NCBI GenBank assembly: GCA_001941065.1
Contig: MSHJ01000005.1
Location: 248,001 to 312,000 of the forward strand
Length of the DNA stretch: 64,000 nucleotides
DNA from: Alistipes sp. Zagget8
Lineage (GTDB): Bacteria; Bacteroidota; Bacteroidia; Bacteroidales; Rikenellaceae
Direction of reading: 5' to 3'
The position numbers were made by a program, and so were the translations under genes. The notes beneath the pieces were generated by a model. The model did not search any database, had not been told where the DNA came from, and was given only the letters and a program-made list of their open reading frames with translations. Of this stretch, positions 22,607 through 47,210 are shown one piece after another. Every line of letters starts with the position of its first letter. The first letter of the stretch is position 1.

Positions 22607-24604
22607 ATGAAAAAAACGCTTTTCTTCCTGTTTTCCGCCTTTGCCGCCTGTGCGTTTCCCGCCTCGGCCCGGCAGCATCTGTCGCTCGCCGATCCCGCCG
22701 GCAGGATGAAGCTCGACCTCTATGTCGGGACGTCGGGGATCGAGTATGCGCTGACGCACGACGGGACGACGGTAATCGACCGTTCGCCTGTTTCGCTGAC
22801 CCTGGCCGGAGGCACGGTGTGGGGCGCCGATCCGAAGATCGAACGCGTCGTCCGCCGGTCGGTGGATACGGTGATTTTCCCGCCCGTCTACCGGAAAGAC
22901 CGCATCCGGGATCGTTTCAACGAACTCACCGTCGATTTCGAGGGTGGTTACGGAATGGTTTTTCGCGCCTATGAAGACGGTGTGGCCTACCGTTTCGTCG
23001 CCCGCGGCGGCAGTCCCTTCGTCGTGGAGAGCGAGCAGGCGTCGTTCAACATTCCCGGCGATCCCTGCGCCTATGCCGCCTATCCCAAGGGGCGGATGAA
23101 CAATGGCGCTCCGGACCCTTTTTACAGCTCGTTCCAGAATACCTATACCCATCGTCCGCTCTCGGAGTGGAACGACGGCTCTATCGCCATGCTGCCCCTG
23201 TTGGTCGAGAGCGCCGGGGGCCGGAAGCTCTGCATCACCGAGGCCGACCTCATCGACTATCCGGGCATGTATCTCCGCAACGATGCGGGGAATGTCCTGC
23301 GCGGGGTGCATGCCGCCTATCCGAAGGAGCTCCGGCGGCAGACGCGCGGGTTGAAATGTGTCGTGCAGAGCCGCGAACCCTACATTGCACGCATGGACGG
23401 CCGTTCGCCGCTGCCGTGGCGCGTGATCGTAGTCTCGGAGAACGATGCGCAGCTGCTCGACAACGACATGGTCTACAAACTGGCCACGCCCGCTTCGGGG
23501 AGCGACTATTCGTGGGTCCGGCCCGGCAAGGTGGCCTGGGAGTGGTGGAACAACTGGAACCTGCGCGGCGTCGATTTCGAGACGGGTGTGAACGACGACA
23601 CGTATAAATATTACATTGATTTCGCGGCGGCGAAAGGCATCGAATACGTGATCCTGGACGAAGGCTGGGCCGTGGAGGGTGAGGCGGATCTCTTTCGCGT
23701 GGTTCCGGAGATCGACCTGCCGGGGCTGGTGAACTACGCCGCCGAACGCGGCGTGGGAATCATTCTCTGGGCGGGTTATTACGCCTTCGACCGGGATATG
23801 GAGAACGTCTGCCGCCACTATGCCGCCATGGGCGTCAAGGGTTTCAAGATCGATTTCATGGATCGCGACGACCAGTATATGATCCATTTCAACTACCGCG
23901 CCGCACAGATGGGCGAGAAATACAGGCTGCTCATCGACCTCCACGGCACCTCGAAACCCACGGGGTTGCAGCGCACCTTCCCCGGGACGGTCAATTTCGA
24001 GGGGGTTCACGGCCTCGAAGAGATGAAATGGGCCAAAGAGGGGACCGATCAGGTGACCTACGACGTCACATTCCCCTTTATCCGCATGGTCGCGGGGCCG
24101 GTGGACTACACGCAGGGGGCCATGCGCAACGCCACGAAAGAGAATTTCCGGACCGTCTACACCGAGCCGATGAGCCAGGGCACGCGCTGCCGCCAGATGG
24201 CCCAGTACGTGATCTTCGAATCGCCGCTCAATATGCTGTGCGATACGCCGAGCAACTACCTCCGCGAGCAGGAGTGCACCGATTTCATCGCCGCCGTGCC
24301 GACCTGCTGGGACGAAACCCGCCCGTTGGCAGGCGAAGTGGGGCACTGCGTGGCTGTTGCCCGCCGCCGGGGTGCGGTGTGGTATGTCGGTGCGATGACC
24401 GGCTGGGAGCCGCGCGAGATGGAGTTCGACCTCTCGTTTCTGGGTGCGGGCGATTTCCGGGCCGAGATTTTCCGTGACGGGGTCAATGCCGGCAAGGCGG
24501 CGCAGGATTACCGGCGCGAGGTGCTGCCGGTGCCTGCGGATCGGAAACTGCGTGTGAAGATGGCTCCCGGGGGCGGAACCGTGATGAAGATCGGAAAAAA
24601 ATGA
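22607..24604 (+). CDS. GH97 glycoside hydrolase, probably retaining alpha-galactosidase type
   Basis: 665 aa with a cleavable signal peptide (FAACAFPASA). An N-terminal beta-sandwich (about 25-280), a barrel (about 285-560) and a C-terminal beta domain match GH97. The family contains inverting alpha-glucosidases (SusB) and retaining alpha-galactosidases; the latter carry an Asp nucleophile on the fourth barrel strand. Here Asp416 in FKIDFMDRDDQ sits where that nucleophile is expected, and NFEGVHGLEE supplies candidate acid/base Glu. I therefore favour a retaining alpha-galactosidase-like enzyme. It has its own promoter under the candidate HTCS operator. Confidence 0.88.
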   Translation: MKKTLFFLFSAFAACAFPASARQHLSLADPAGRMKLDLYVGTSGIEYALTHDGTTVIDRSPVSLTLAGGTVWGADPKIERVVRRSVDTVIFPPVYRKDRIRDRFNELTVDFEGGYGMVFRAYEDGVAYRFVARGGSPFVVESEQASFNIPGDPCAYAAYPKGRMNNGAPDPFYSSFQNTYTHRPLSEWNDGSIAMLPLLVESAGGRKLCITEADLIDYPGMYLRNDAGNVLRGVHAAYPKELRRQTRGLKCVVQSREPYIARMDGRSPLPWRVIVVSENDAQLLDNDMVYKLATPASGSDYSWVRPGKVAWEWWNNWNLRGVDFETGVNDDTYKYYIDFAAAKGIEYVILDEGWAVEGEADLFRVVPEIDLPGLVNYAAERGVGIILWAGYYAFDRDMENVCRHYAAMGVKGFKIDFMDRDDQYMIHFNYRAAQMGEKYRLLIDLHGTSKPTGLQRTFPGTVNFEGVHGLEEMKWAKEGTDQVTYDVTFPFIRMVAGPVDYTQGAMRNATKENFRTVYTEPMSQGTRCRQMAQYVIFESPLNMLCDTPSNYLREQECTDFIAAVPTCWDETRPLAGEVGHCVAVARRRGAVWYVGAMTGWEPREMEFDLSFLGAGDFRAEIFRDGVNAGKAAQDYRREVLPVPADRKLRVKMAPGGGTVMKIGKK

Positions 24605-24635
24605 TTATTATTGTAGAACTAAATCGCTCGGAACA

Positions 24636-25715
24636 ATGAAAAGATCGATTACCGTGCTCTTCCTGCTGTTCGTCGCAGCGGCCGGGGCGCAGGAGAAGAA
24701 GGAGGTGAGCAACAATACGCTCGCCGTGCGCATCGCAGACCAGGAACACGATTTCGACGTGGTGGTCAAGAAACTCGAGGATGTGCTGTGGTACGACAAG
24801 ATGGACGACGTGGCCTATGTCGACAAGGTCCGCCTGACCGGTCCGCCGCGTTTCCGGCAAATCCCCACGGGCAACGCCTTCCACGATGCCCTGCTGGACA
24901 ACGACCTCGTTTTCCACGCCTATGTCTTCATCCCCAAAAAGGCGAAGCAGAACAAGAAATATCCGCTGGTGGTCTTCTCCCACGGCGGCATCCACGGCAC
25001 CTTCTCCACGGTCTATGCGCACGTTATCCGTGAACTTGTGGCCCAGGGGTATCTCGTCGTGGCGCCCGACTACCGCGGCAGCACGGGCTACGGCAAGGGT
25101 TTCTACCGGAGCATCGACTACGGGGGATTGGAGAATGAGGATGTGCTGGCGGCCGCCCGCTATATGGTGGAGAATTACCGCATGGTCGATTCCCGGCGGG
25201 TGGGGCTGCTGGGATGGAGCCACGGCGGGATGATTACGCTGATGAACGCCTGCAAATATCCCGAGGTCTATGCCTGCGGTTATGCAGGGGTCCCGGTCTC
25301 CGACGTGACCTACCGTCTCGAATACCAGAAGCCGGGCTATACCGATAATTTCACGGCTTCGTACCACATCGGCAAAACCCCGCAGGAGGCTCCCGAAGAG
25401 TATGCCCGCCGTTCGCCGGTGAACTATGCCAAAGACCTGCGGATTCCGCTGATGATCACCACTGCGGAGAACGACGACGACGTGAGCGTCCGCGAGGTAC
25501 GGCGCATGATCGATTCGCTGAATTTCTACAAGAAGGATTTCGAATACAAGGTCTATCCGCCGATGCCCGGGGCGCACCTGTTCGACCGCATCGACACCCG
25601 CGAGGCGACCGACATCCGTTATAAAGCCTATGAGTTCCTCGCCCGTTACCTGACGCCTCCCAGACCTTTCCGTTCGCCGGACGAACTGCGCAAGGCGGGG
25701 TATCGGTTCAATTAG
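24636..25715 (+). CDS. Secreted S9/prolyl-oligopeptidase-like alpha/beta hydrolase
   Basis: 359 aa. A signal peptide (LFVAAAGAQ) precedes an alpha/beta-hydrolase domain with oxyanion VFSHGG, the S9-like block VVAPDYRGSTGYGKGF, nucleophile elbow GWSHGG, acid in TTAENDDDVS and His in PGAHLF. The YRGSTGYG block is typical of prolyl oligopeptidase/dienelactone-type enzymes. It could be a peptidase or an esterase. It lies 31 bp after GH97 and is probably its operon partner. It meets radA tail-to-tail 3 bp downstream. Confidence 0.8.
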   Translation: MKRSITVLFLLFVAAAGAQEKKEVSNNTLAVRIADQEHDFDVVVKKLEDVLWYDKMDDVAYVDKVRLTGPPRFRQIPTGNAFHDALLDNDLVFHAYVFIPKKAKQNKKYPLVVFSHGGIHGTFSTVYAHVIRELVAQGYLVVAPDYRGSTGYGKGFYRSIDYGGLENEDVLAAARYMVENYRMVDSRRVGLLGWSHGGMITLMNACKYPEVYACGYAGVPVSDVTYRLEYQKPGYTDNFTASYHIGKTPQEAPEEYARRSPVNYAKDLRIPLMITTAENDDDVSVREVRRMIDSLNFYKKDFEYKVYPPMPGAHLFDRIDTREATDIRYKAYEFLARYLTPPRPFRSPDELRKAGYRFN

Positions 25716-28406: not shown

Positions 28407-30944
28407 TTACTCCGTTTTCAGCGAGTTTTCGATCCTGCGGAGCATGTAGCTGCAGAAATCGCGCGACGAAGCGTCCGATGCCACGACCAGGCCCTTACGG
28501 TAGATGTCGCGCAACTGCAACAGCATGCCGTAATAGACGTGCTCCGAAAAGTCTTTGGCGTAATACGCCATCCGGTATTTGCCGTATGCGCTTATGGGCT
28601 CCAGCGTCGCCGTGGCTTCGTAGGGGAATGCGGGCTGCATGACCTCCTCGTCTGCCGCCGCGAACGCCGCGGCCCGGCTTCGTGCGGATTTGGGCTCCGC
28701 GAGCACCTTCGAACCGCCGATGACCACGCCCGTGAACGCCTGTTGGAGCTGCCGGTTGTAGTCGGACAGCTTGCGTCCGGCCCTTACGTCTCGGAAGATG
28801 TAGTCGGCCATGTCTGCCGCCATCTCTCCCGGGGTGTAGGCTCCCGGCAGTCCGTTCTGGTAGCGGGGCAGGGTCTCCATGCGCTTCATCAGCGTTCCCA
28901 GACAATCTGCCTGCACGGCCTGCGGGAGGTTGGCCAGCTGGCCTTCGGTGAGCTTCGTGTCGAGCCACGAGAGGTCCTCGATGGCCTTCAGCGTCTCCTT
29001 CACATAGCGGCGCTGCTCCTCCTTGGGCACGACGCGGAGCATCGTCTGCCCGTCGCCCTCCGTGACCTCGGTGTAGTAGACCCCGCCGATGTAGGCCGCC
29101 ATGTAGGAGACCATCTCCCGGACGCCCGTCGACAATGCCGCAATGGCCTCCGTGCGGTAGCTTCCGTCCGCGTCGCGCCCTTCGAGCCACTCCGCTGCAT
29201 GCCGTGCGACGGTGCGCAGGTTCTCGAACCGGTAACGGGTCCGTTTCACGGGATCGTCGCCCAGGTTGTAGTAGGCCAGCCGCACGTCGCCGAAATAGTA
29301 GTCGTACCAGTAGTTGCCGTAGTAATAGGCCGGGTCGCCGGCTTTCTCGCGGAGCATCTCCGAGAGCGCTTTCTGCTCCTCGGCGGGGCTTTTGGCCCCT
29401 GCGATGTCGCCGTAGAGCCAGCGGATGGCGAAATAGTCGTATTTGCCCAGACAGTCGTTCACCAGCCGCACGCCCTTGTCCCCGGGCTGTGCGAGGTAGT
29501 TGTAGTCGTTGAGCGCCGTGATCGACGAGCAGAGCCCGTTCTCGCGGGTGAACGCCGCCGAACGCAGCGAGTCGGTCGGGTAGGCCGCCGCTGCTGCATA
29601 GTTGGTCGCCAGTCCGAGCAGCTGGGCCACGCCGCGTGCCGTGTGCACGGCCAGCGACGAGGCGAGCTCCTCGTCGTCGAGAACCATGTCGCGTGCCGCG
29701 GGATCGGCGGCCGAGAGGTCGATGAAGCGGCGGAGCCGGATGGCGTCGAGCAGGCTCTCGGGCAGGTGGATGCGGCCGCCCGTGATCTCGCCGCTGCGGG
29801 GATCGGTCGAGAGGTTGACCGTCATCTTCGGATTGGTCGAAGCGACGTATTTCACGTAGAACCTGCCGGGGCTGTTGCTGTCGAATCCGTCGGCGGGATA
29901 AACCTCGGCCTTGAGCACGTCGCCCATGCCGATGCGGCGGAAGGCTTCGTTCCACAGCGCGATGCCGCGGCGGATTCCCTGCTGCCATGCCGGGGCGAAG
30001 AGCGTGTCGATGTAGAAGGTCACGGGACGTATCTCACCTCCTTTGCGGAAATCGATCCGCGAGGCGAAATAGGCCGGACGGGAGCCCTGCTCCGCGGTGA
30101 AGCGGGTGAAGGGCACGGGCAGCACGCCGATCCGCGGATCGGCGATACGCGCCGGGGCGCACTCCTCGGGGAGCATCGTGACGGTGCGCCGCGCGAGGGC
30201 CGTGAAGGGCTTGTCCTTGCAGATGATGAAGATGAAATACTGCGTCGTGACGCCGTAGGTCATGTCGCTGATGACCGAGGCGTAGTCCTTTCCGCCCTCC
30301 ACGTCGCGGAGCAGCGAGCGGTCTGCCTTGTAGCTGGCCTTGGAGATATGCAGCGGACCCATGCCGCGGGCTTCGAACGCCTTGAGGTGTTCGTTGTCGC
30401 TCATGAACAGCGCTGTGTTCTCGATCACCACGGCCGTCGAATCGGCGTTGTAGGCTTTGATCGGGTAGCTGGCGACGATGGGCATCGCCGAGTTGATTTT
30501 CAAGGCCTTTGCGATTCCTGCATCGCCGTCGGAGAGCGTTCGCTGCGGCACCTCGTGCATCCGCACCAGCGAATCCCGGCGCGAGAAGGTCACGTGGTAG
30601 GGCGGCAGGGGCTGCTGGCCCGCCAGTCCGTAGTCGGCCAGCGACGACTCCTCGATGGAGGTGTTGATGACGAACTCGCGTTCGAGGATGTCGAGCGGAA
30701 TCTCCGTGTAGAGTTTTCCCTCGATGAGGTGGAGTTTGAAGAGTCCGTCGGCGCTTTTGACCTCTTTGTCCTTGAAGAGTTTTTCATAGGCCGACAGCTT
30801 TTTTTCGGGCGCCGGGGCTTCGCTTTTTTTCTTGTTCCTGCGGCTTTTGGCCCCCGCCTCCGCGGGCAGCGCGGCCGTCGCCAGGAGTGCGGCAAGCAGC
30901 AGCGTGCCGATCTTGTTCAGGGATATTCTCATGGCTGGAGGCAT
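28407..30944 (-). CDS. Catalytically degenerate DUF5117/5118-type metalloprotease homologue
   Basis: 845 aa with a signal peptide and a Lys/Arg-rich start (KSRRNKKKSEAP) shared with its neighbour. The two align along their length (SAYEKLFK, INTSIEESSLADYGLAG, YPTDSLRSAAFT, NYLAQPGD). The active site is lost: where the neighbour has HEVGHCLGFMH this protein reads RGVAQLLGLAT (residues 437-447), so all three zinc His and the Glu are gone. The Met-turn SIMDY is SITAL. It may regulate or chaperone the active enzyme or bind substrate. The start overlaps the upstream stop as TAATG; an ATG at 30932 is an alternative that also fits the signal peptide. Confidence 0.9.
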   Translation of the reverse strand: MPPAMRISLNKIGTLLLAALLATAALPAEAGAKSRRNKKKSEAPAPEKKLSAYEKLFKDKEVKSADGLFKLHLIEGKLYTEIPLDILEREFVINTSIEESSLADYGLAGQQPLPPYHVTFSRRDSLVRMHEVPQRTLSDGDAGIAKALKINSAMPIVASYPIKAYNADSTAVVIENTALFMSDNEHLKAFEARGMGPLHISKASYKADRSLLRDVEGGKDYASVISDMTYGVTTQYFIFIICKDKPFTALARRTVTMLPEECAPARIADPRIGVLPVPFTRFTAEQGSRPAYFASRIDFRKGGEIRPVTFYIDTLFAPAWQQGIRRGIALWNEAFRRIGMGDVLKAEVYPADGFDSNSPGRFYVKYVASTNPKMTVNLSTDPRSGEITGGRIHLPESLLDAIRLRRFIDLSAADPAARDMVLDDEELASSLAVHTARGVAQLLGLATNYAAAAAYPTDSLRSAAFTRENGLCSSITALNDYNYLAQPGDKGVRLVNDCLGKYDYFAIRWLYGDIAGAKSPAEEQKALSEMLREKAGDPAYYYGNYWYDYYFGDVRLAYYNLGDDPVKRTRYRFENLRTVARHAAEWLEGRDADGSYRTEAIAALSTGVREMVSYMAAYIGGVYYTEVTEGDGQTMLRVVPKEEQRRYVKETLKAIEDLSWLDTKLTEGQLANLPQAVQADCLGTLMKRMETLPRYQNGLPGAYTPGEMAADMADYIFRDVRAGRKLSDYNRQLQQAFTGVVIGGSKVLAEPKSARSRAAAFAAADEEVMQPAFPYEATATLEPISAYGKYRMAYYAKDFSEHVYYGMLLQLRDIYRKGLVVASDASSRDFCSYMLRRIENSLKTE

Positions 30945-33562
30945 TATTTATTGAGCGCTTTGTCGAGGTTGTGCAGCAGGTACTGGTAGTGCATACGGGT
31001 CTCGCCCGACGCCGATGCCGCCTTGCCGCGCAGCAGGTTGCGGATGCGCAGGATGTCGTTGTAGTAGATCATCGAGATGTCCTTCTGCGTGAAATACTGG
31101 AACCGGGGGGCTCCGAATCCCGACACGGCGTCGCCGTCGGCCGCGATTTCGTGCTCACATCCGGCGCAGCTGCACAGCGGCGCGGGCCGGGCGAATGCGC
31201 TGAATGCCTCCCATCCGGCGTCGTCCGCGGCGAATGCGTTAGGCGTGCTGCCTCCGGCGGTGTAGTTCTTCAGCCCGGCCTTGGCGGCCGCGGCCTTGAG
31301 GAATTCGCGCTGGATGGCCATTTCATCCTCGGTCAGGCGGCGGTTGCGCACGGTCGGCTCCCACACGAAATCCGAGACGTCCTTGTAGCAGGCTTCGGGG
31401 GTGTAGGGGTCCTTCGACAGCTGGGCGTTGATGGCGAGGGTCTTTTTGGCCGGGGCGTTGACCACGGCTTTGATAACGGCCTCGCGCACGGCCTCCCGGG
31501 GCGATCCCAGGATGGTCACTTTCTCCAGCAGCGGGGCGTTGTCGAGCCACTGCATCTGCTTGAGCTCCCCGAGGATGAACTGCAGCGCCCGGCGCTGTTT
31601 TTCACGCGGCACGCACGCCACGGCTTCCACGGGGTCGCCTTCGAGTTTCTCGTTGAGGTAGATGCCGCCGATGTTGGCGTAGACGTGCTGGATGTAGGTG
31701 ATGTACTGGTTCACGACGTTCGTGTACATGGCGTTGCGCTGCGAATAGTCTTCGTCCCCGGCGGCAAGCCACGCGTCGAGGTTTGCGAGGATGTAGCGCA
31801 GGTTCCGGATGCCGTATTCCGAGGCTTTCACGGCGTCGTCGCCGAGGTCCTCGGTCTGGGACTTGGGATCGACGATGCCGCCGAACTGCTGCTTGCCGTA
31901 GCGGAAGGTCGGGTCGGCCGACGCCTCGGTGATCCATTTCGAGGTCACCTCATACTCTTCCTCGGGGGTCCCGGCATCGGGAACCGGGGTGTAGAGCCAT
32001 TTCACGGCATATTCGTCGTAGACACCGAAGCGGGGCGGGGTGAGTTTCACGCCGCGTTCCCGGTCGCCGGGCTGTGCCACGTAGTTGAAACGCGCGTAGT
32101 CCATGATCGAGGTGGTCGTGCCGTATTTCTGCGTGAACGACGGCGAGCGGAGCGAATCGACCGGAATCACCGACGACGAACTCATGTTGTGCATGAATCC
32201 CAGACAGTGGCCCACCTCGTGCGCCAGCACGTAGCGGAGTCCGTCGAGGAGTACCTCGTCGGGCAGGTTTACCTGCCGGACGCGCTCGTCGGCCTGCGAG
32301 GTCTGGACGAAGATCATCCGGTTGAGCATCTTCACGACGTCGTGGAAGACGTAGACCGAGGCGTTGAGTATCTCGCCGCTGCGCGGATCGACCCACGAGG
32401 GACCCATGGCGTTGGCGATGGGTATCGGGGCGTAGCGCAGGCAGGAGTATTTGATGTTGTCGGGATCGAACTCCGGGTCGTCTTCGGGGTAGGGCAGCGC
32501 CTTCACGGCGTTCTTGAACCCGATTTTGGCGAAAAGCTCGTTCCACTGCATGACGCCCTCATAGACGGCGGGCTGCCACTTTTCGGGGAAATCCGGGTCG
32601 ATGTAGAAGACGATCGGCCGGACGGGCTCGACCTGCTCGCCGCGCTTCCAGGCCTCCGGGTCCGAAGGCTCCAGCCGCCAGCGGTTGGCCAGGTAGAGGG
32701 CCTTCACGCGCTGCTCCTTGTCGCTGTAGAGGTATTTCCCGGTGGGGAATACCGACATGCGGCTGTCGGTGATGCGGGGGCGGTAGGGCTCCTCGTCGAG
32801 CAGCACCAGCGTGCGGGTCATGACGGCGGTCAGGGGCTCGTTGTCCACGATTTTCTGCTTCGTCACGGGGTGCGTCACCGAGTAGGTGTAGCTCAGCGTG
32901 CTCTTCACCGTGAGGTTGTCGGCGAACGACTTGATGCCGCCCAGCGACGAAAGCTCCTTCTTGAACGACTCGCTGAGGCTCGACGACCCCGAACCGCCAT
33001 AGGCCCCGAGGTACGAGAAGGGCGACAGCTCCTTGACGTGGCTCACGAAGAGGTCCGTGACGTTGATGACCACGGCCGTCGAGTCGGCGTTGTAGGCGTC
33101 GATTTTGAAATTGCGGAAGATGGTCGGGATGTTGTTCCGGTCGAGCGAGCGGAGGATGTTCCCGGCCACGCCCAGCGTGTAGTTGTCGGCGTTGATCTCC
33201 CGGATTTGCACGCTCTCGCCCGTCTTGGTGAAGGTGATGTGGAGCGGCGTGTAGGATTTCGAGCCGGGGACTCCCGTGAGGTTGTCCGAGGTCTCCGAAA
33301 TCACCGACCCCAGCAGCATTTCGCGTCCGAAGAGCGCCTGCGGGAATTCGAAATAGAGCTTGTCGTCGACCTTGTGCAGCTTGATCATGCCATCGGCAAC
33401 CTCGTGTTTCTTCTTGAAGAGTTTGTCGTATGCGCTCTCCTTGGGTTTGGGCGCTGCGGCTTCTGTTTTGGCCTTTTTCCGGCTGCTTTTCCGGCTTTTG
33501 GCCTCGAGGGGCGCGGCGGCTATCAGGGCGCAGAGCGAAAGCGTAAGAACTTGTTTGAGCAT
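30944..33562 (-). CDS. Exported zinc-dependent metzincin-like protease (DUF5117/5118 family)
   Basis: 872 aa. A signal peptide (SLCALIAAAPLEA) is followed by a basic stretch, then DUF5118-like and DUF5117-like regions. The catalytic motif is HEVGHCLGFMH: His448, Glu449, His452 and His458, the extended metzincin pattern. A Met-turn-like SIMDYARFNY lies downstream, and a C-terminal domain follows. It should be a periplasmic or surface peptidase of unknown substrate. It lies between the YiiX-like gene (24 bp upstream) and a degenerate paralogue (1-bp overlap downstream). Confidence 0.92.
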   Translation of the reverse strand: MLKQVLTLSLCALIAAAPLEAKSRKSSRKKAKTEAAAPKPKESAYDKLFKKKHEVADGMIKLHKVDDKLYFEFPQALFGREMLLGSVISETSDNLTGVPGSKSYTPLHITFTKTGESVQIREINADNYTLGVAGNILRSLDRNNIPTIFRNFKIDAYNADSTAVVINVTDLFVSHVKELSPFSYLGAYGGSGSSSLSESFKKELSSLGGIKSFADNLTVKSTLSYTYSVTHPVTKQKIVDNEPLTAVMTRTLVLLDEEPYRPRITDSRMSVFPTGKYLYSDKEQRVKALYLANRWRLEPSDPEAWKRGEQVEPVRPIVFYIDPDFPEKWQPAVYEGVMQWNELFAKIGFKNAVKALPYPEDDPEFDPDNIKYSCLRYAPIPIANAMGPSWVDPRSGEILNASVYVFHDVVKMLNRMIFVQTSQADERVRQVNLPDEVLLDGLRYVLAHEVGHCLGFMHNMSSSSVIPVDSLRSPSFTQKYGTTTSIMDYARFNYVAQPGDRERGVKLTPPRFGVYDEYAVKWLYTPVPDAGTPEEEYEVTSKWITEASADPTFRYGKQQFGGIVDPKSQTEDLGDDAVKASEYGIRNLRYILANLDAWLAAGDEDYSQRNAMYTNVVNQYITYIQHVYANIGGIYLNEKLEGDPVEAVACVPREKQRRALQFILGELKQMQWLDNAPLLEKVTILGSPREAVREAVIKAVVNAPAKKTLAINAQLSKDPYTPEACYKDVSDFVWEPTVRNRRLTEDEMAIQREFLKAAAAKAGLKNYTAGGSTPNAFAADDAGWEAFSAFARPAPLCSCAGCEHEIAADGDAVSGFGAPRFQYFTQKDISMIYYNDILRIRNLLRGKAASASGETRMHYQYLLHNLDKALNK

Positions 33563-33586: not shown

Positions 33587-34225
33587 TCAGAAATAGCGGT
33601 GAACGATGCGGATGGCCTTCGACCGGGACATATCGCCCGGATTGGTGCCCGGCACGCCCTCGGGGATGTCGCATTTGTGGCGTTTGAAATGCTCGATCCA
33701 CAGGGGGCTCGTCTCGCCCGTCGTCTTGTCGCGGAAGGTCATGGGCTTCATCCGGAAGATCGGTTTTCCGCCGGGACGCAGGTAGGAGACATAGATCAGC
33801 TCGCTGCAGTAATACGTGTCGTCATCGGGGTCGAAAACATAGTCGTAACGTTTTCCCAGCAGCTTTTTGATCCGTTCGATGGCCGCCGGAATGTTCTTCT
33901 GCAGCCGGGGTTTCAGCCTGCCGACCACTACGACCGGTTTGCCGTCGGCCAGCTGGGAGTTGCGGAAGAACTTGTCCAGCTTGCTCTTGACGACCCCGTA
34001 AGGCACGGCTTCGAGCACATAGGTCTCCCCGTCCTCGATATAGGCCACGCCCACGTGCGAAAATTCCAGCTGTTCGATGCCCGAGGTGACGTTCATGATG
34101 GCCTCGGTGTAGGCGCTCCGGCCGTTGACCTGAAAGAGCAGGTCGCCGGTCTCGAGCCGGAACGGCTCTCGGGCATACCCCGTCGCGGCGGTGAGGAGCA
34201 GCAGGATGAACAGAATTCGTTTCAT
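33587..34225 (-). CDS. YiiX/YebB-like permuted papain-fold hydrolase
   Basis: 212 aa with a signal peptide (LLLTAATGYA). The YiiX family is a circularly permuted NlpC/P60-like cysteine hydrolase. Here LETGDLLFQ opens the domain, the His is in EFSHVGVAY and the catalytic Cys in YYCSELIY. Possible substrates are peptidoglycan peptides or lipid/amide bonds; the family is poorly characterised. It is the first gene of the operon with the two protease homologues. The ATG at 34225 precedes the signal peptide directly; a second ATG lies three codons upstream. Confidence 0.85.
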   Translation of the reverse strand: MKRILFILLLLTAATGYAREPFRLETGDLLFQVNGRSAYTEAIMNVTSGIEQLEFSHVGVAYIEDGETYVLEAVPYGVVKSKLDKFFRNSQLADGKPVVVVGRLKPRLQKNIPAAIERIKKLLGKRYDYVFDPDDDTYYCSELIYVSYLRPGGKPIFRMKPMTFRDKTTGETSPLWIEHFKRHKCDIPEGVPGTNPGDMSRSKAIRIVHRYF

Positions 34226-34260
34226 GGTTTGCATAGGCGAATTGTCTTCGAAAGATAAGC

Positions 34261-35896: not shown

Positions 35897-36640
35897 TTAT
35901 TCGTAATTGATCGTTCCTTTGAACTCCACCAGTTCTCCGTTGTCGTAAGTGGGGTTGTCGCGGAACCATTCATAGGTGCGTTTGCCGTAGGCATAGAGCT
36001 TGGCTTTATTGCTTTCCTGCCAACTGTCGGAGGTCACTCCGTTGAGTTCGACGTATTTCTCGGCTTTTATCGAGGTGAAGTTGCCTCCGTAGGTGTTCAG
36101 GTCGTTCTTGTTCCAGAAAACGGGCTGGCTGGTGAATCCTTCGCCCGAGATTTCCAGTCCGATACTCTGGTATTTGTCCAGTCCCACGGCAAAATTTTCT
36201 CCCGGGACGAGTTCCAGGACCAGCGTTCCCGAAACCTTGTCGGCACGTAGCTTGGCGATGTTGGCATGTACGACGGCCGAATCGGCATACTGCCCTGCGT
36301 GGAGAATCTGGCTTTCCGGGAGCGTGAAATGTACGCCTTCCACCAGGTCGCCGTAGCTTTTTTCGGTCGATACACGTACCGAGTATGTCCGGTCGTAATC
36401 CGCGATGTCTCCGGAGAGGTATATCGGGAGTTTGAAATCGGTCTGTTCCTGGCCGGCATGGAATACGGCGGCGAGTTTCAGGGTGTCGAGGGCGCTGCCG
36501 CTCAGATTCAGTCCGGGCAGAAAGTAGCTCTTGACGAAATTCAGCGAGGGATGTTCGGCATCGTATACCGGAATATCCTCCTTTTTGCAGGCTGCGAAAG
36601 CGATGGCGATTGCCAGAACGGATATGATGTATTTTTTCAT
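35897..36640 (-). CDS. DUF4843 lipoprotein
   Basis: 247 aa. The lipobox (IAFAACKKE) and the N-terminal pattern PVYDAEHPSLNFV match DUF4843, which follows SusD in many PUL-like operons. Two beta-sandwich-like segments follow, with no catalytic motif. It is probably an outer-membrane surface component of the neighbouring SusC/SusD complex. The gene lies 11 bp after SusD and 12 bp before the PKD-like gene. Confidence 0.87.
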   Translation of the reverse strand: MKKYIISVLAIAIAFAACKKEDIPVYDAEHPSLNFVKSYFLPGLNLSGSALDTLKLAAVFHAGQEQTDFKLPIYLSGDIADYDRTYSVRVSTEKSYGDLVEGVHFTLPESQILHAGQYADSAVVHANIAKLRADKVSGTLVLELVPGENFAVGLDKYQSIGLEISGEGFTSQPVFWNKNDLNTYGGNFTSIKAEKYVELNGVTSDSWQESNKAKLYAYGKRTYEWFRDNPTYDNGELVEFKGTINYE

Positions 36641-36651
36641 GGCTTTCTCTC

Positions 36652-38223
36652 TTAATAGGTTCGGCCCGCGTTGAACTCCTTGTCGGGGATGTCGGGCGTA
36701 TATCTGTTGTCGTTCATCGTGAAATAGTAGGTCAGCTCCGGAACCTGGAACAGCGTGGTCAGCCGTTCAGCGTTGCGCCGCTTGTAGGCGTAGAAGAGCT
36801 GTCCGTCGCCGAGCGTTTCGCGGCGGTATTCCAGCAGTATTTCGGCTTTCAGCTCCTCGGGGTCCGCCGAGTTGAAGATACCGCCCTGCCGTGCGGTCTG
36901 GAGCTGCTGGAGGATGCTCAGGCCTTCGCCCGGACTGACGGCCTCGATGGCCGCTTCGGCGGCGATCAGGTAGGCTTCGCCCAGCTTGAGCAGCGTCACG
37001 GCCTGCTTCGGATAGAGCGCCACGTCCTCTGCCGCACTCGATTCGCGGATGTATTTGCCGACCATGCCTGCCGGCGAGGAGGTTCGTTTCCAGAGATTGA
37101 TGCGGATGTCGCTCGCTGCCGAGAAGAAGGCTGCGGGCACCAGTCCGGAGGTTGCGCTGAGCCATTTGTTCGACATGAAGCGGCCGAACATCTTGAGCCT
37201 TTTGCCGGTCATGCTGAGCGCGTCGCGCATATTATCGTCCAGATCGTCCGTGAGCACGGCGAAGAGGTTTTCCATCGGGCAGCTGCGGTCCACGGGCGTT
37301 CCGTAACTGTCGATGCGGTTGCGCTCGGCTTCGGTGATGAAGTGGACGCCGGCTCCCGCGGCGTTGTCGATGACCTCCTTGGCGGCGTCATACGCCTCCT
37401 TGTCCTTGCCGCGGTAGAGGAACGACCGTGCCTGGAGGAGTTTCACGGCGTAGTAGTTCAGCTTGTACTGCCGGTTGGTGGTGAACATCAGCGTGTGGTA
37501 GCGCTTGTTCGAACTGATGGGGTCGTTGTCCTTCATGATCTCGGCGACATGGGCCAGGTCGGCGTCCACCTTGTCCAGAATCTCGTCGGTCGTCGATGAG
37601 GGAACGAATTTCAGGGCGTCGAGCGTCTCCATGTAGGGGATGCGCCTGGCGGTCTTGCCCTGCTCCGAAAGGTAGGGAGGCTGGAACAGCCGCACGAGGT
37701 CGAGGTGCAGGTAAGCCCTTACAGCCAGCGCTTCGCCCGTCAGCAACTCCTTGACGCCCGTTTCGAACGCTACGTCGGTGGTTTTGAGCTCCTGGAGCAG
37801 CAGGTTTGCGTTGGTGATGGTGTTGTACGTCTTCGTCCAGATAGCCTCCAGCGTGGCGTCGGTCTGTTCTGTACGGATTCCTCCGCGCGTGTAATTGAAT
37901 GCCGGGAACTGCAGTGCGGTCACGGCGTCGCCATAAGTGGGGTCGTTGTAGAAATTATTGGCGTGATAGGTGACCATGTTTCCGCTGCCCATGTACACGG
38001 CGCCTCCCATCATGTCGAGGTATCCGCACGTGAGGTCGAATCCGTAGAGCTTGTCGTCGGCCATTTTGATGTAGAGGCCCGCGAGTGCGGAGTAGAAACC
38101 GTCCTCGTTTTCGAAGACCTTGTTCGAGGTGATCTCCGAACGGGGATATACGTCGAGCCAGTCTTTGCACGATACGGTGCCGACGGCCAACAGCAGCAAG
38201 GTTGCGATATATCTTATTTTCAT
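36652..38223 (-). CDS. SusD/RagB-like lipoprotein (second pair)
   Basis: 523 aa. The lipobox (VGTVSCKDW) is followed by LDVYPRSEITSNKVFENEDGF, a standard SusD start, quoted only in part as motif. TPR-like helices continue to a C-terminal LLEYRRETLGDGQLFYAYKRRN, the RagB/SusD signature. It pairs with the SusC just upstream on the - strand, whose reading frame is broken. If that transporter is dead, this lipoprotein would lack its partner. Confidence 0.93.
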   Translation of the reverse strand: MKIRYIATLLLLAVGTVSCKDWLDVYPRSEITSNKVFENEDGFYSALAGLYIKMADDKLYGFDLTCGYLDMMGGAVYMGSGNMVTYHANNFYNDPTYGDAVTALQFPAFNYTRGGIRTEQTDATLEAIWTKTYNTITNANLLLQELKTTDVAFETGVKELLTGEALAVRAYLHLDLVRLFQPPYLSEQGKTARRIPYMETLDALKFVPSSTTDEILDKVDADLAHVAEIMKDNDPISSNKRYHTLMFTTNRQYKLNYYAVKLLQARSFLYRGKDKEAYDAAKEVIDNAAGAGVHFITEAERNRIDSYGTPVDRSCPMENLFAVLTDDLDDNMRDALSMTGKRLKMFGRFMSNKWLSATSGLVPAAFFSAASDIRINLWKRTSSPAGMVGKYIRESSAAEDVALYPKQAVTLLKLGEAYLIAAEAAIEAVSPGEGLSILQQLQTARQGGIFNSADPEELKAEILLEYRRETLGDGQLFYAYKRRNAERLTTLFQVPELTYYFTMNDNRYTPDIPDKEFNAGRTY

Positions 38224-38235
38224 GGGAATCTGTTT

Positions 38236-39639
38236 TTAGAAATTAGCCTGGAGACTGAGTGTGAACGTGCGGGCGTAGGGATACGAGAGACCGCGCTCCT
38301 GCCGGATCGTGGAGGAGTAGAACAGGTCGTTGGCCGAGAGCGCGATACGAATCATCGACATGCCCAGCAGCCGCTTGTCGGGCGTGTTGAGGTTGTACAT
38401 GATGCGTATCGAGTTCATCCGCAGGTAGTTGTTCTTCTGCACGAAGCGCGAGCTGGCGTAGGTCTTTCCCGAGACGTTGATGCCGCGGTACTTGGCGCTC
38501 TGGCCCGGCTCCGACCAACGGTCGTAGAGGGCCCGGCGGTCCATGTTGTAGGCCACCCGGTCGGTCGAGTTGTTCATCGAGGTGTTCTCGATGCGGTCCA
38601 CGAGCGTCTGGTTGTACATTTCGCCGCCGAACGAGTATTCGAAGCTGGTGTTCAGCGACCAGCGCTTGTAACTGAGGTTCAGGCCGAAATAGCCCCGGAG
38701 GTCGGGCTCCGTGTCGCCCACGACCACCTGATCCGCCGAGTTCCACGTGAAGGTGCGCTTGCCGTCCTTGGTGATGAATATCTCCTGACCCGTTCCGGGG
38801 TCGATGCCGGCCGACGGCACGGCGTAGATCGCCGTGAGCGACTTGCCCTCTTCGAACAGGAAGACGTTTTCGATTTTGGTTTTGTCGGTCGTCGTCTGCT
38901 GCTCCATGATCTGCTTGTTGTAGTCCTTGAGGGCTTCGGAGAGGTTTGTCAGCTTGTTGCGGTTGTGCTGTCCGTTGACGAAGAGGTTCAGCTGCCACTC
39001 CTTGGTGCGGACGGGCGTTACCGAGAGGCTGAAATCGAAACCTTTGTTGCTGACGTCGCCCTGGTTGGCCGTGTAGGACGAGAATCCCGTCGAGGGCAGG
39101 ATGTCCACCCGGGTGATGTTGTTGTCCGTGGTGTTCGAGTAGTAGTTGAACTCCAGGTTGATGCGGTTCTGGAGGAATCCCAGTTCGAGGCCGATGTTGC
39201 GTTTGAGCGTCGTCTGCCACTTGAGGTCTGGATTGGCCAGCGACATGAGCTCCGCGCCCGTGATTCCGTCGTACATCGTCAGGTACTTGTACATGTTCAG
39301 GATCTGGCTCAGCACGAAATTCGAGTTGCCGGTGGTTCCGATGTTGGCTTTCAGGGCGAGGTTGTCGAAGAGCTTGCGGTTCATGAATTTCTCGTTCATG
39401 AGGTTCCAGCGCACGCCCACGGCCCAGAACGACGACACGCGCTGCTTGCTGGCGAAGTTCGACGATCCGTCGACGCGGTAGCTACCGTCGACCATGTAAC
39501 GGTTGTCGAACGAGTAGTTGACCGTTGCGAAGGCGCCCGCCGTGCGGACGATGCTGCTCGAACCGGTGGGGCGTCCCGAAAGCGGATACTGTGCGCCGTC
39601 GGAGGGGAACGTCTGCGAGTCGTTGAGGAATCCCGTCAC
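38236..39639 (-). pseudogene. SusC C-terminal half, separated by a frameshift
   Basis: 467 codons encode the distal barrel strands of a SusC transporter, ending LSYPYARTFTLSLQANF with the terminal Phe. There is no signal peptide or plug, so it cannot function alone. It opens at a GTG overlapping the TGA of the N-terminal half (GTGA), and homology runs straight on from that half. Near 39640-39655 one extra base (or two fewer) would join the frames. The junction has no homopolymer or slippery heptamer. It is either a recent mutation or a sequencing/assembly error. Confidence 0.85.
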
Positions 39640-41717
39640 CGCATAGCTGTGGCTTCGGCCTTGTCCTCCTTGATTTCGCCGCCCAGGACGGCCTGCACGG
39701 TGTGTCGTGCGAAGCTCTTCTGGTAGGCGAGGGTCATCTTGCCGTAGTATTTCGTCGACGAGGTGTTGCCCTTGTTATAGCTCCCTCGGCGGTAGAGCTG
39801 CTCGATGGAGTTGTTTTCGAGCCCGTCGGTGATTGCCGAGCTGAACGGCGAGACGTATTTCTCCGTCATGCTCTCCTGCCGGTCGTAGGTGAATTCGCCG
39901 CGCAGGCGGAGGTCCTTGACGATCTCCCAGTTGGCTCCCAGCTGATACGACAGGCTCAGGCTGTTGCCGCGCGAGAAATTGTTCAGGTTGTTGGCCTCGT
40001 AGAGCGGGTTGATCTGGCTGCCGAGGACGTTGGGCCCGATGTCGGTCCAGGGATAATTCTCGTAGAGCGGGATGTTGTTGGCCGAGAGGGACGGGAAATA
40101 GTTTCCGCTGCTGTCCTTGATGCGGAAGATCGGGAGCAGCTGGGTGTAGGTCGCGAAATTGCCGTAGGGCGAATCCTTCGTGTCGGTGAATCCCACCTGC
40201 AGGTCGCTGGTCAGCTGTAACCGGTGGGTGTCGTAGATCAGCTTCGCACCGCCGCCGTAGTTGTTGCGCAGCGATCCGATCATCACGCCGTCCGAAAAGT
40301 TGCCGTTGAGGCTGATCTGGTAACGCAGCGTGCGGTCGGTCCCCTCCTTGCCGACATCCGTTCCGCCTTCGAGCATCAGCGAGTGGTTGTGCTTGAACGC
40401 GGTGCGGAGCGGTTGTGCGAGCCAGTAGGTGTCCACGCCGTTGGCGGCCTCCATTTTGAGCATCGTCAGCAGGTTGCGCCGTTCGGGGTCCACCCCGCCG
40501 ATGGCGCCCGATCCTTTCGAGAAGACGTCCATTTTCTCGTAGTACTGTACGAGCTCCTTCGAGTTCATCAGGTTGTACGACGAGAGGTCTGGGGTTTCGA
40601 TGCTGGTGTCGAGTTTATACGAAATCTGCAGTTTGCCTTTTTGGGGCATCCTGGTCGCGATGACGACCACGCCGTTGGCGGCACGCGAACCGTAGATCGA
40701 CGAGGCCGCGGCATCTTTGAGGATGGTGACGCTTTCGACGCGGTTGATGTCGAGGTTGTAGACCTTTTCGACCGTGACCTGGAATCCGTCGAGGATGAAG
40801 ATCGGCAGCGTGGTGTAGGTCTGGAGCGTGTTCTCCGAGATGTCGGGCATACTGTTCGCGCCGCGGATTTCGATGCGGTCGGGGATGTAGTTGGGGTTCG
40901 ATCCGAATTCGCCGGTGATGTCCGAGATCACGAACGAGGGATCGTACACCTGCAGCGCCTGCAGGATGTTGGTCGGGTTGACTTTCACGAGGTCTTCGCC
41001 CTTCACCTGCGTCGCCATACCCGTGAAGCTGTTCTTGGCCTTGGGCACATAACCCGTGATAATCAGGGCTTCGGATTCGATGACGTCGGCTTTCAGGGTG
41101 ACGTTCAGCGTTCCGTTGCCGACGGGGAGCGTCTGGGTCTCCATGCCGATCATCGAGAAGGTGATCTGCGTCTCATCGGCGGGCACGCGGAACGAGAAGG
41201 TTCCGTCGGCTGCCGTCGAGGTGCCGCGCTGCTTGTCCTTGACCGAGATGACCGACACGCCGACCATCGGGTTGCCGGCTTCGTCCCTGACCACGCCCGA
41301 TACCGTGCGCACCGGGACGGCCCGGGCCATGACCGACCCGCCCTGTGCCGCCGTGGTTTTGGGGTCCTGCGACAGCACGATGGTGTTGTTGATGAACTGG
41401 TAGGTGAGTCCCAGCTTGGGGAGGATGCTTTCGAGCACCTTGTTCACGGGGACCTGCCGCGCCGAGACGTTCACTTTGCGCGAGACGTCGACGTTGTTGT
41501 CGCTGTAAAATATCTTGTACCCGGTCTGTTTCTGGATTTCGGCCAGCAGGACCGAGAGCGGTTTTTCCTGTAACCGGAACGAGACTTTGGCCTCCTGCGC
41601 ACGGAGTGCGCCGGCGGGGAAACAAGCCAGGAGGGCCAGCAGCAGGCACATCCGCAGCAGCCGTAAGGGCCGTGTGCCGCGCGGTGCCGGGGTGGTGTAT
41701 GTTGTGATGTTGTTCAT
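39636..41717 (-). CDS. SusC N-terminal half with STN signalling domain (frameshifted gene)
   Basis: 693 aa. After the signal peptide comes an STN domain (about 44-95, FRLQEKPLSVLLAEIQKQTG), the domain that contacts FecR-type anti-sigma factors. Then follow a CarboxypepD_reg-like domain (about 118-200), a TonB-box-like ALIITGYV, a plug with ILKDAAASSIYGSRAANGVVVI, and the first barrel strands. Translation stops at ATAMR-TGA in mid-barrel; the rest is in the 38236-39639 frame. The intact gene would be about 1160 codons. A truncated product would keep the signalling domain but not a complete barrel. Confidence 0.88.
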   Translation of the reverse strand: MNNITTYTTPAPRGTRPLRLLRMCLLLALLACFPAGALRAQEAKVSFRLQEKPLSVLLAEIQKQTGYKIFYSDNNVDVSRKVNVSARQVPVNKVLESILPKLGLTYQFINNTIVLSQDPKTTAAQGGSVMARAVPVRTVSGVVRDEAGNPMVGVSVISVKDKQRGTSTAADGTFSFRVPADETQITFSMIGMETQTLPVGNGTLNVTLKADVIESEALIITGYVPKAKNSFTGMATQVKGEDLVKVNPTNILQALQVYDPSFVISDITGEFGSNPNYIPDRIEIRGANSMPDISENTLQTYTTLPIFILDGFQVTVEKVYNLDINRVESVTILKDAAASSIYGSRAANGVVVIATRMPQKGKLQISYKLDTSIETPDLSSYNLMNSKELVQYYEKMDVFSKGSGAIGGVDPERRNLLTMLKMEAANGVDTYWLAQPLRTAFKHNHSLMLEGGTDVGKEGTDRTLRYQISLNGNFSDGVMIGSLRNNYGGGAKLIYDTHRLQLTSDLQVGFTDTKDSPYGNFATYTQLLPIFRIKDSSGNYFPSLSANNIPLYENYPWTDIGPNVLGSQINPLYEANNLNNFSRGNSLSLSYQLGANWEIVKDLRLRGEFTYDRQESMTEKYVSPFSSAITDGLENNSIEQLYRRGSYNKGNTSSTKYYGKMTLAYQKSFARHTVQAVLGGEIKEDKAEATAMR

Positions 41718-41732
41718 CTGCTTGATCTTAGG

Positions 41733-43112
41733 TTATTTGACAATGGGGAATGCCTTTTTGCCGACCTCGGTTATCTGCGAGCCGTCGTAGGCGGTTATCG
41801 TCTGGTTGAGACGCTTGCAGAAATGGTAGCGCACGCCTTCTCCCATAAATTCGTACTGGTACTGCTTGCCTATGGCCTCCATCAGCTGAGCCTGCGTGGC
41901 CGTTTCGGGCAGCTTCATCGACTCGCTGTTGCGCTGGACCATGAAATCGTTGAACTGTCCGATTCCCGCGGGCAGCTGGTTCGACTTGGCGGCGGCTTCC
42001 GCGGCCAGGAGGTATACCTCGCCGATCTTGATCATCGGGATGGCCGGCGTGGTCTTCCACTTGTCGATTTTGCTTGTCGGGGCGAATTTCGTGCGCATCG
42101 TGTTGTCAGCGTCGAACCAGTTGCGGCGCCGGTCGTCGGCGTGCAGGTCGTCGATGTCGAGCCGTGGCGAGAGGGTCACGCCCTTACCGTCGGGAGCCGG
42201 GGTGAAGAGCTCTTCCGAGAGTGCGCAGAATCCCGTCTCGGGGGAGGGCAGCGCGAAGATGAACTCCGCCGAGAACTCATAGTCGGTTCCCGAGACGGTC
42301 CTCACGAAAGCGTATCCGCCTTCGTCGATGATTTTCGTCAGCAGTCCGTATGCCTTTCCGAAATCCTCCGCCGTGCCGCGGCTCATCCGTGCGCGTGCTT
42401 CGGCGGCCAGACATCCGTAGTAGTTGAGTTTCCAGACGCGGTCGATGGGCGAAGCCCCCAGGAGCGACATATCGTCGTAGCTCACGCCGGTGACGATGGG
42501 ATCGTATTTGGCGAGCTCCGCGGCAGCGGCTTCCAGCTCCGTGACGATCTTGTCGGTCAGCTGCGCCGTGGTCATCTGCGTGCCTTTGGGCTGCGTGCCC
42601 TCCATCCAGAGGATGTTCGACGCGGCGTTGTCCGCCGCATAGGCGGGGCTGTACAGTTTCAGGAGTTCGAAATGCAGGAACGCCCGCAGGCCCCGGGCCT
42701 CGGCGACCATCATTTCGCGCGATCCGTCGATGAAATCCACGTCGCGTTTTTCGGCGAACAGCCCGAGGATGTCGTTGCACTGGTAGATGGCGGCATAGAG
42801 TTTGGCGTATGCCTCCCGGGCGATTTCCCGGGCCATGTCGCTGTTGAAATCCATCTTGGACCATGCCTCGGCCCCGGCATAGGGGACGAAACTCTGGGCG
42901 AGGAATTCCACGCCTCCCAGCGTGAGGTTCGAGCCGTAGAGGTCCGCGGAGCGGAGCCCGGCATAGATACCGTTCATGTAGTCGCGGAAGGAGGCTTCGT
43001 TGTCGAAGACCTTGGCGCCGGATTGTCCTCCTCCCTTGGGTTCAGCCTCGAACCACTTGTCGCACGACACGGTTACGAGGAGCAGGAGTGCGGTGTATAT
43101 GATTTTTTTCAT
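41733..43112 (-). CDS. SusD/RagB-like lipoprotein (first pair)
   Basis: 459 aa. The lipobox (LLVTVSCDKW) precedes FEAEPKGGGQSGAKVF and SusD-type helices, with the RLNQTITAYDGSQ end common to this clade. It follows the short SusC by 12 bp and precedes the frameshifted SusC by 15 bp, so the operon holds two SusC/SusD pairs in series. Confidence 0.92.
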   Translation of the reverse strand: MKKIIYTALLLLVTVSCDKWFEAEPKGGGQSGAKVFDNEASFRDYMNGIYAGLRSADLYGSNLTLGGVEFLAQSFVPYAGAEAWSKMDFNSDMAREIAREAYAKLYAAIYQCNDILGLFAEKRDVDFIDGSREMMVAEARGLRAFLHFELLKLYSPAYAADNAASNILWMEGTQPKGTQMTTAQLTDKIVTELEAAAAELAKYDPIVTGVSYDDMSLLGASPIDRVWKLNYYGCLAAEARARMSRGTAEDFGKAYGLLTKIIDEGGYAFVRTVSGTDYEFSAEFIFALPSPETGFCALSEELFTPAPDGKGVTLSPRLDIDDLHADDRRRNWFDADNTMRTKFAPTSKIDKWKTTPAIPMIKIGEVYLLAAEAAAKSNQLPAGIGQFNDFMVQRNSESMKLPETATQAQLMEAIGKQYQYEFMGEGVRYHFCKRLNQTITAYDGSQITEVGKKAFPIVK

Positions 43113-43124
43113 GTGTTCGCGTGT

Positions 43125-45992: not shown

Positions 45993-47210
45993 CTATCTCA
46001 GCGTGATTTTCTTTCCGTCGTAGTCTATCTGCATGCCCGTTCCGGTCGATGCGATGATGGAGAGTATTTTGTCGAGCTCCCCGCACCGCGGGAACTGGCC
46101 GCTGAAGCGGAGTCCGTCCAGGAGGGGCGAGACCTCGAATTCGAAATTGTACCAGCGTGCGAGGCGTTCCATGATTTCGGTGATCGAGGCGTGTTCGAAG
46201 AGGAAGGTTCCGGACATCCAGGCCGTCGCCAGCGACGTGTCCACCTCTTTCACGGCGATTGCGCCGTTGTTCCGGAGGCTGTATTCGGCCTGCTGGCCGG
46301 GTTCGAGCGTCACCCCTTCGCCGCCCGCGAGCGGAGCTATCGCCACAGAACCTTCTACCAGCGTGGTGTATATGGCGCGGTCGCCCTCGTAGGTATTGAT
46401 ATTGAAGCGCGTGCCCAGCACCCGGATGCTCTGGCCGCCCGACTCGACGACGAAGGGCCGCCGGGCGTCGTGCGCCACCTCGAAATAGGCTTCGCCTTCG
46501 AGCCATACGCGGCGTTCGCGGCCCCGGTCCGAGGTGAAGAAGCGCAGGCGCGATGCGGCGTTCAGCCATACCCGCGTGCCGTCGGCCAGCGTGAGGCTGT
46601 ACTCGCTGCCGCGGGGCGTGACCAGCGTGTTGTACTCTTCGGGAAGCTCCTCTTTCGGCTCCTGCCGGGCTTTCCGGGGCTTGTAGGCGAGACTTTTCTC
46701 CCCCGTGAGCTCCACGTCCACGCCTGTCTCCGTCCGGACCGCCAGCGAATCCCGCAGTCCGAGGTCGATGCTCGCGCCGTCGGCGAAATAGAGCACCGCG
46801 TGCTGTCCGTCGGGCCTGATCTGCGCGATCTGCGCCATGACCCGCTTCTGGCGTCCGACGTGCGTGTAATAAATCACGCCGCAGGCGATCAGCACGGCCG
46901 CCGCCAGGCTCGCGGCGCTTTGCAGCATCAGCGAGTAGCGTTTCAGGCGCCGCTGTCCTTTGCGCTCCTCCATCCGGCGCTGCACCTGCTCCCAGGCGCG
47001 TTCCACGTCGCATTCGGCGCGGATTGCACGGCGGTGTTCCAGCTCTTCGGCATCGAGGATTTTCCCGATGATGCGGACTTTGTCCTCTTTTTCCAGCTCC
47101 CGCAGACGCAGTTTCAGCTGTTCACGCTCGTGCGGGGATGTTTTCGACACGAAAAAACGTCCCAGCAGCTTGGCGGCCTTGATAAATGATATGATATCCC
47201 CGACTAACAC
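45993..47210 (-). CDS. FecR-family anti-sigma factor
   Basis: 405 aa inner-membrane protein. The N-terminal cytoplasmic part (about 1-90) should bind the ECF sigma factor. One TM lies at about 93-115, followed by the periplasmic FecR domain (TPRGSEYSLTLADGTRVWLNA, GEAYFEVAHDARRPFVV) and a C-terminal DUF4974/STN-like domain (about 325-405). It should release the sigma factor when an STN-bearing transporter reports substrate. The only in-frame start giving the full N-terminus is GTG at 47210; it lies inside a 15-bp palindrome. Confidence 0.93.
   Translation of the reverse strand: MLVGDIISFIKAAKLLGRFFVSKTSPHEREQLKLRLRELEKEDKVRIIGKILDAEELEHRRAIRAECDVERAWEQVQRRMEERKGQRRLKRYSLMLQSAASLAAAVLIACGVIYYTHVGRQKRVMAQIAQIRPDGQHAVLYFADGASIDLGLRDSLAVRTETGVDVELTGEKSLAYKPRKARQEPKEELPEEYNTLVTPRGSEYSLTLADGTRVWLNAASRLRFFTSDRGRERRVWLEGEAYFEVAHDARRPFVVESGGQSIRVLGTRFNINTYEGDRAIYTTLVEGSVAIAPLAGGEGVTLEPGQQAEYSLRNNGAIAVKEVDTSLATAWMSGTFLFEHASITEIMERLARWYNFEFEVSPLLDGLRFSGQFPRCGELDKILSIIASTGTGMQIDYDGKKITLR

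Follow-up and report, generated by a model that had tools for sequence, protein, structure and literature searches.

Two adjacent genes in the window, the 64,000-nucleotide stretch of Alistipes sp. Zagget8 DNA that was analysed, encode a live Met-zincin (protein A) and a full-length dead homologue (protein B) that probably assemble into an obligate heteromer, an exported zinc protease of two subunits encoded beside an import system. We put the probability of this reading at about 0.55. Protein A would contribute the zinc site. Protein B, its dead sister, would complete the enzyme, either by shaping or stabilizing the substrate chamber or by holding the substrate. Together they would process, most likely in the periplasm, a protein or peptide that the SusC/SusD proteins of this gene run take up. 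Judged by sequence, B is dead, conserved and selected, lies nearly always beside the live gene and has long been co-inherited with it. From these patterns we infer a physical association of A with B, and likewise the exact role that B would have in the complex.

A live and a dead protease gene overlap by one base

The genes for A and B are read from the same strand and meet at a single shared base.

30944-33562, reverse strand: protein A, live Met-zincin, 872 aa (open reading frame)
28407-30944, reverse strand: protein B, dead homologue, 845 aa (open reading frame)
30944..30944, reverse strand: one-base overlap of the A stop codon with the first ATG of B (...AAATAATGCC...)

Because a second in-frame ATG lies 12 bases further on, the exact start of B is uncertain. 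A and B align from end to end with 31% identity over 854 columns (E 3e-107). The zinc motif of A, HEVGHCLGFMH, has the form HExxHxxGxxH, with H448, H452 and H458 as ligands and E449 as the catalytic residue. The Met-turn of A, SIMDY (M487), is invariant across the live partner clade. Motif and Met-turn are two hallmarks of the metzincin zinc peptidases, and B lacks both. In B the site of the zinc helix motif is occupied by RGVAQLLGLAT (residues 437–447). In the family alignment H448, E449, H452 and H458 of A are replaced by R, G, Q and T in B and M487 is replaced by T, with SITA standing where A has its Met-turn; none of the three zinc ligands is left in B, and the catalytic glutamate and the Met-turn methionine are substituted as well. 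The family alignment bears out the initial annotation, which had set these two motifs against each other and noted the replaced Met-turn methionine. A motif scan of the B sequence found no alternative HExxH, HxxEH or HxxxH motif.

Outside the active site the resemblance between A and B persists. The blocks DSLRS and AQPGD are retained in both proteins, and both N-termini, judged by eye, have the look of a type I signal peptide, then a Lys-rich tail. Retention of length, signal peptides (by eye) and blocks had been noted earlier together with the one-base overlap, and each of these points was confirmed. No T9SS C-terminal domain was found among the Pfam matches of A or B. The plausible type I signal peptides, taken with the lack of a T9SS domain, suggest that A and B are periplasmic.

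Domains and predicted structures

Both proteins carry the Pfam domains DUF5118, DUF5117 and DUF4953 'Met-zincin' with scores far above the curated cut-offs. The DUF4953 score of B is 191.8 bits, against a cut-off of 24.2. In A the domains are arranged as follows.

A residues 43-91: DUF5118
A residues 104-300: DUF5117
A residues 432-737: DUF4953

Since A combines HExxH with DUF4953, it is not a member of M16, whose motif is HxxEH. The dead branch is not split off as a separate entry in Pfam.

Full-length A and B were each modeled with confidence as single chains with AlphaFold2, giving pLDDT 89.9 and pTM 0.89 for A and pLDDT 86.6 and pTM 0.86 for B. The secondary structure of the two models matches, and the zinc-motif helix of A (435–453) is equivalent to helix 424–442 of B. 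When the whole chains were compared with the PDB by Foldseek, no solved structure matched all of A or all of B significantly, the best matches having TM-scores of about 0.3 or less. A sequence search of the PDB with A and B returned nothing significant.

Dead copies lie beside live ones in several Bacteroidales families

Ten family members are encoded in the window's own genome, where L007/L009 form a second live/dead tandem pair elsewhere. This second pair and the many more found in other genomes exclude chance. The occurrence of pairs in many genomes also rules out a local oddity of one genome.

Across Bacteroidales 44 dead-copy ORFs were found at approximately 37 distinct loci. Scans of species-level genome collections yielded 37 of these ORFs (about 31 distinct loci, as some contigs were met twice), and an order-wide survey yielded 7 more, among which L148 may repeat L051. 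One further strong match, G367:C22, stands outside these counts. The hosts are bacteria of gut and sediment: Rikenellaceae (mainly Alistipes, several species), Odoribacteraceae (Butyricimonas), Bacteroides (B. faecis) and uncultured Bacteroidales, among them two MAGs with the label HGW-Bacteroidetes. Order-wide the dead form is rare, being absent from most genomes sampled evenly across Bacteroidales, and live family members without a dead partner are common across the sampled Bacteroidales. Many live members thus work on their own, and the family as a whole does not depend on a dead subunit.

In 32/37 dead ORFs from the collection scans, the direct upstream neighbor on the same strand is a live family member; this figure includes L009 and L010, whose partners are known from other searches. 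In two others (L040 and L053) the adjoining family gene is itself interrupted by a frame break, and the last three begin at the edge of a contig, where the neighbor is unreadable. In the order-wide survey 7/7 dead ORFs adjoin a live one. Some loci were found through the live member, which biases those few toward pairs; most were found through the dead member. The gap between partners ranges from -4 to +27 bases in the 28 pairs measured besides that of the window. L140 has the reversed gene order, with the dead copy before its live sister.

Intact full-length dead frames are present at nearly all loci and in several Bacteroidales families; the dead copies of L097, L082 and L154 are short or fast-evolving. 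The initial annotation had raised the question of whether the dead form is conserved and always paired or, in close relatives, solitary or decaying. Among the 44 ORFs it is conserved and is paired wherever the flank is readable, and no solitary dead copy was seen at any readable flank. Frame breaks were confined to two metagenome-assembled genomes that are not close relatives, one affecting the dead copy of L053 (11566-14203) and the other the live copy of L040 (7085-9786).

Phylogeny of live and dead copies

In a maximum-likelihood tree of 90 proteins, 25/26 dead copies fall on one side of a branch. When more rows were added and the active-site columns were removed, 29/31 dead copies grouped together. 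The exceptions, L070 (the middle member of a Butyricimonas triplet) and L140, sit among live proteins beside live relatives. A tree constrained to a single origin of all dead copies was rejected with p-AU 4e-41, in a test that shares any long-branch bias. Inactivation has thus probably happened three times or more, on each occasion within a tandem array that also holds a live copy. The independently dead L140 (G139:C2 325229-330513) has kept the catalytic Glu and the third His and has lost two zinc ligands.

Key-residue replacements vary by dead subclade (RGQT, RHAV, REFA and QATM). The dead subclade of L149, L150 and L082 retains the second zinc-ligand His (RNIGHCLGLSDN type), so in this group the ligands were lost stepwise or incompletely.

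The live partners of the main dead group form one clade (SH-aLRT 90), and every sampled member of this clade has a dead neighbor. Live and dead subclades correspond one for one. The A and B distance matrices, compared over 23 pairs, have a correlation of 0.94, while the best of 2000 permutations reached 0.36. The dead half evolves about 1.9x faster than the live half. Because the genes are neighbors and are inherited as a block, this congruence indicates joint inheritance and not contact.

Selection on the dead copies

Between the window and Alistipes montrealensis (L039), A has a dN/dS of 0.17 and B one of 0.19. Over other close pairs the ratio ranges from 0.05 to 0.30 for dead copies and from 0.03 to 0.17 for live ones. 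Purifying selection clearly acts on the dead copies, the former active site included. That region is among the most constrained of B (dN 0.044, ratio 0.13; dN of the A region is 0.045), which argues that the dead pocket still matters.

The dead clade retains 63 of the 147 positions that are invariant in the live partners. It has lost Y444, V445, H448, H452, M457, H458 and M460 at the zinc helix, the NAMGPSW segment at 384–390, and Y489, A490 and R491 after the Met-turn. The position of segment 384–390 before the zinc helix suggests that it forms the upper rim of the cleft. Among the positions typical of paired as opposed to unpaired live proteins are D440, D643, F662, G85 and K557, while P415, Q110 and E75 of B are conserved in dead proteins only.

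The proposal, made when the pair was first described, that the dead copy has been kept as a functional partner for the live one is strongly supported by the near-universal pairing, the purifying selection, the matching trees and the recurrent inactivation in tandem. One of the roles suggested for it at that time, a substrate-binding decoy, is weakened: the dead clade has lost NAMGPSW, a segment invariant in the live partners, so B is unlikely to bind substrate identically or to serve as a simple decoy of equal specificity.

This result also bears on a broader possibility, namely that B regulates A as an inhibitor, activator or decoy, by binding A or by competing with it for substrate, and is not a permanent subunit. 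Such a regulator would account for the tight 1:1 linkage and translational proximity of the two genes, and constraint on the former active site of B is what one expects if that surface still binds something. However, the same binding of the same substrate is improbable once NAMGPSW is lost, and a pure decoy should sometimes be solitary or lost. We regard a regulator as rather unlikely; it nevertheless comes next after the reading of A and B as two subunits.

The pair belongs to a SusC/SusD gene run

Upstream of A, on the same strand, lies a run of genes that encodes the components of an import system.

33587-34234, reverse strand: YiiX/C92 permuted papain-like amidase, directly upstream of A; also in L039 and L040
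34316-35884, reverse strand: PKD-like lipoprotein PF16407 (E 3.6e-6, below the curated cut-off)
35897-36640, reverse strand: DUF4843 lipoprotein (Pfam)
36652-38223, reverse strand: second SusD, a SusD-like lid lipoprotein
38236-41717, reverse strand: second SusC, a SusC-like TonB-dependent transporter, split into ORFs 39636-41717 and 38236-39639
41733-45965, reverse strand: first SusD (41733-43112) and first SusC (43125-45965), syntenic in G054
45993-47210, reverse strand: FecR-type anti-sigma factor, head of the gene run

L055 and L048 have PKD homologues in the corresponding position that do score above the cut-off. The split of the second SusC (window 39630-39660) is a one-base deletion relative to the orthologue in G054, which is intact at 1161 aa; the frame break may be an assembly error or may be real. 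Most pairs have SusC, SusD, DUF4843 and PKD genes next to them, and the pair usually follows these. In L041 an endonuclease/phosphatase-family lipoprotein and a PKD/PQQ protein are encoded by the intervening genes; in L058 and L103 the pair comes before SusC. The SusC/SusD gene run of the window contains no glycoside hydrolase. On the forward strand at 22607-25715, downstream of RadA, the window encodes two exported-looking proteins that resemble, by eye, a GH97-like glycosidase and an S9-type peptidase.

A peptide cargo is suggested by the protease pair, and it is reasonable given that SusCD structures with oligopeptide ligands are known, namely RagAB of P. gingivalis and Bt2261-64 of B. theta (PMC7782687). 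The window resembles these systems in having a SusC/SusD operon without a glycoside hydrolase in its gene run. Ferredoxin uptake by FusA/FusC joins a TonB-dependent importer to a protease that processes the imported protein (PMC6793856, PMC6071955). To that extent the window is similar, as a TonB-dependent importer is encoded with a protease; it differs in that the Fus protease, FusC, belongs to M16 and the importer, FusA, is no SusC. The main text of the Fus paper makes no mention of Bacteroidetes or heterodimers. The pairing in the window hints at a protein-feeding counterpart to the well-studied glycan import systems.

Because B shares an operon with SusC/SusD and with the DUF4843 and PKD lipoproteins, it might be an exported binding protein with an import role of its own, for example holding periplasmic peptides, that makes no contact with A. 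Its faster evolution relative to A (ratio 1.9) would fit such independence. A protein of this kind, however, would have no need to adjoin a live protease every time, its repeated origin by inactivation in tandem with live copies is not expected, and the fact that the live partners form their own clade also speaks against it. We consider it improbable, and place it after the regulator and ahead of a folding helper.

Relation to known protease pairs

Inactive protease partners are well known from the M16 peptidases and from eukaryotic sheddase control. Bacterial M16B pairs (TTHA1264/TTHA1265, SPH2681/SPH2682 and AlbF/AlbE) are tandem-encoded active/inactive homologues that make up one heterodimeric enzyme, and in mitochondrial MPP beta/alpha the inactive subunit forms half of the cavity, binds substrate and is essential (PMC12731061). 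Like the M16B pairs, A and B are tandem homologues, one with and one without the zinc motif, and are conserved as a pair. Unlike M16B proteins, which have HxxEH, a clamshell and chains of about 50 kDa, A and B belong to an HExxHxxGxxH Met-zincin family, have chains of about 95 kDa and form a putative complex. For A and B as two subunits of one enzyme, the M16B pairs and MPP would in our analysis be the nearest working model.

A search of the open literature, with subscription papers outside its scope, found no papers naming DUF4953, DUF5117 or DUF5118. With the same scope, no description of a dead metzincin partner was found for Bacteroidetes or for bacteria. The active/inactive peptidase pair as such is known; its strict, ancient occurrence in a Met-zincin family looks new. 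It is possible, and we advance it only tentatively, that A and B belong to an undescribed class, an obligate live/dead heteromeric metzincin that is inherited as a unit across Bacteroidales, whose dead copies arose at least three times and which forms the protein-processing half of SusCD import. The strict, ancient and recurrent pairing in common gut bacteria offers a ready model for the function of a dead protease subunit.

Folding, alternative catalysis and decay

The conserved adjacency, the usual order of live then dead and the fold common to the models of A and B are also compatible with B acting as a folding or secretion helper in the maturation of A. This is quite unlikely, as a dedicated helper need not retain 870 residues and all three domains, and unpaired live relatives fold without one. 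That B is a hydrolase with a different catalytic site, as its constrained pocket region might suggest, is very improbable, given that no metal-binding motif was found in B and that the replacing residues vary between dead subclades. Least probable of all is that B is a duplicate in the course of decay: the dead copy of L053 is frame-broken in a MAG and a few copies evolve fast, but nearly all frames are intact across several families, dN/dS is 0.05–0.30 and most dead copies share an ancient single origin.

B itself, with an intact frame and dN/dS of 0.19, was rejected as a pseudogene, and for the dead clade as a whole dN/dS together with the broad conservation ruled out a decaying duplicate.

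Tandem arrays of the family are not confined to live/dead pairs. In the window's genome three live members (L008, L006 and L004) lie in tandem at G000:C9 487875-495615. Butyricimonas has comparable live triplets (L059, L078 and L079), and in L070 the middle of the three is dead.
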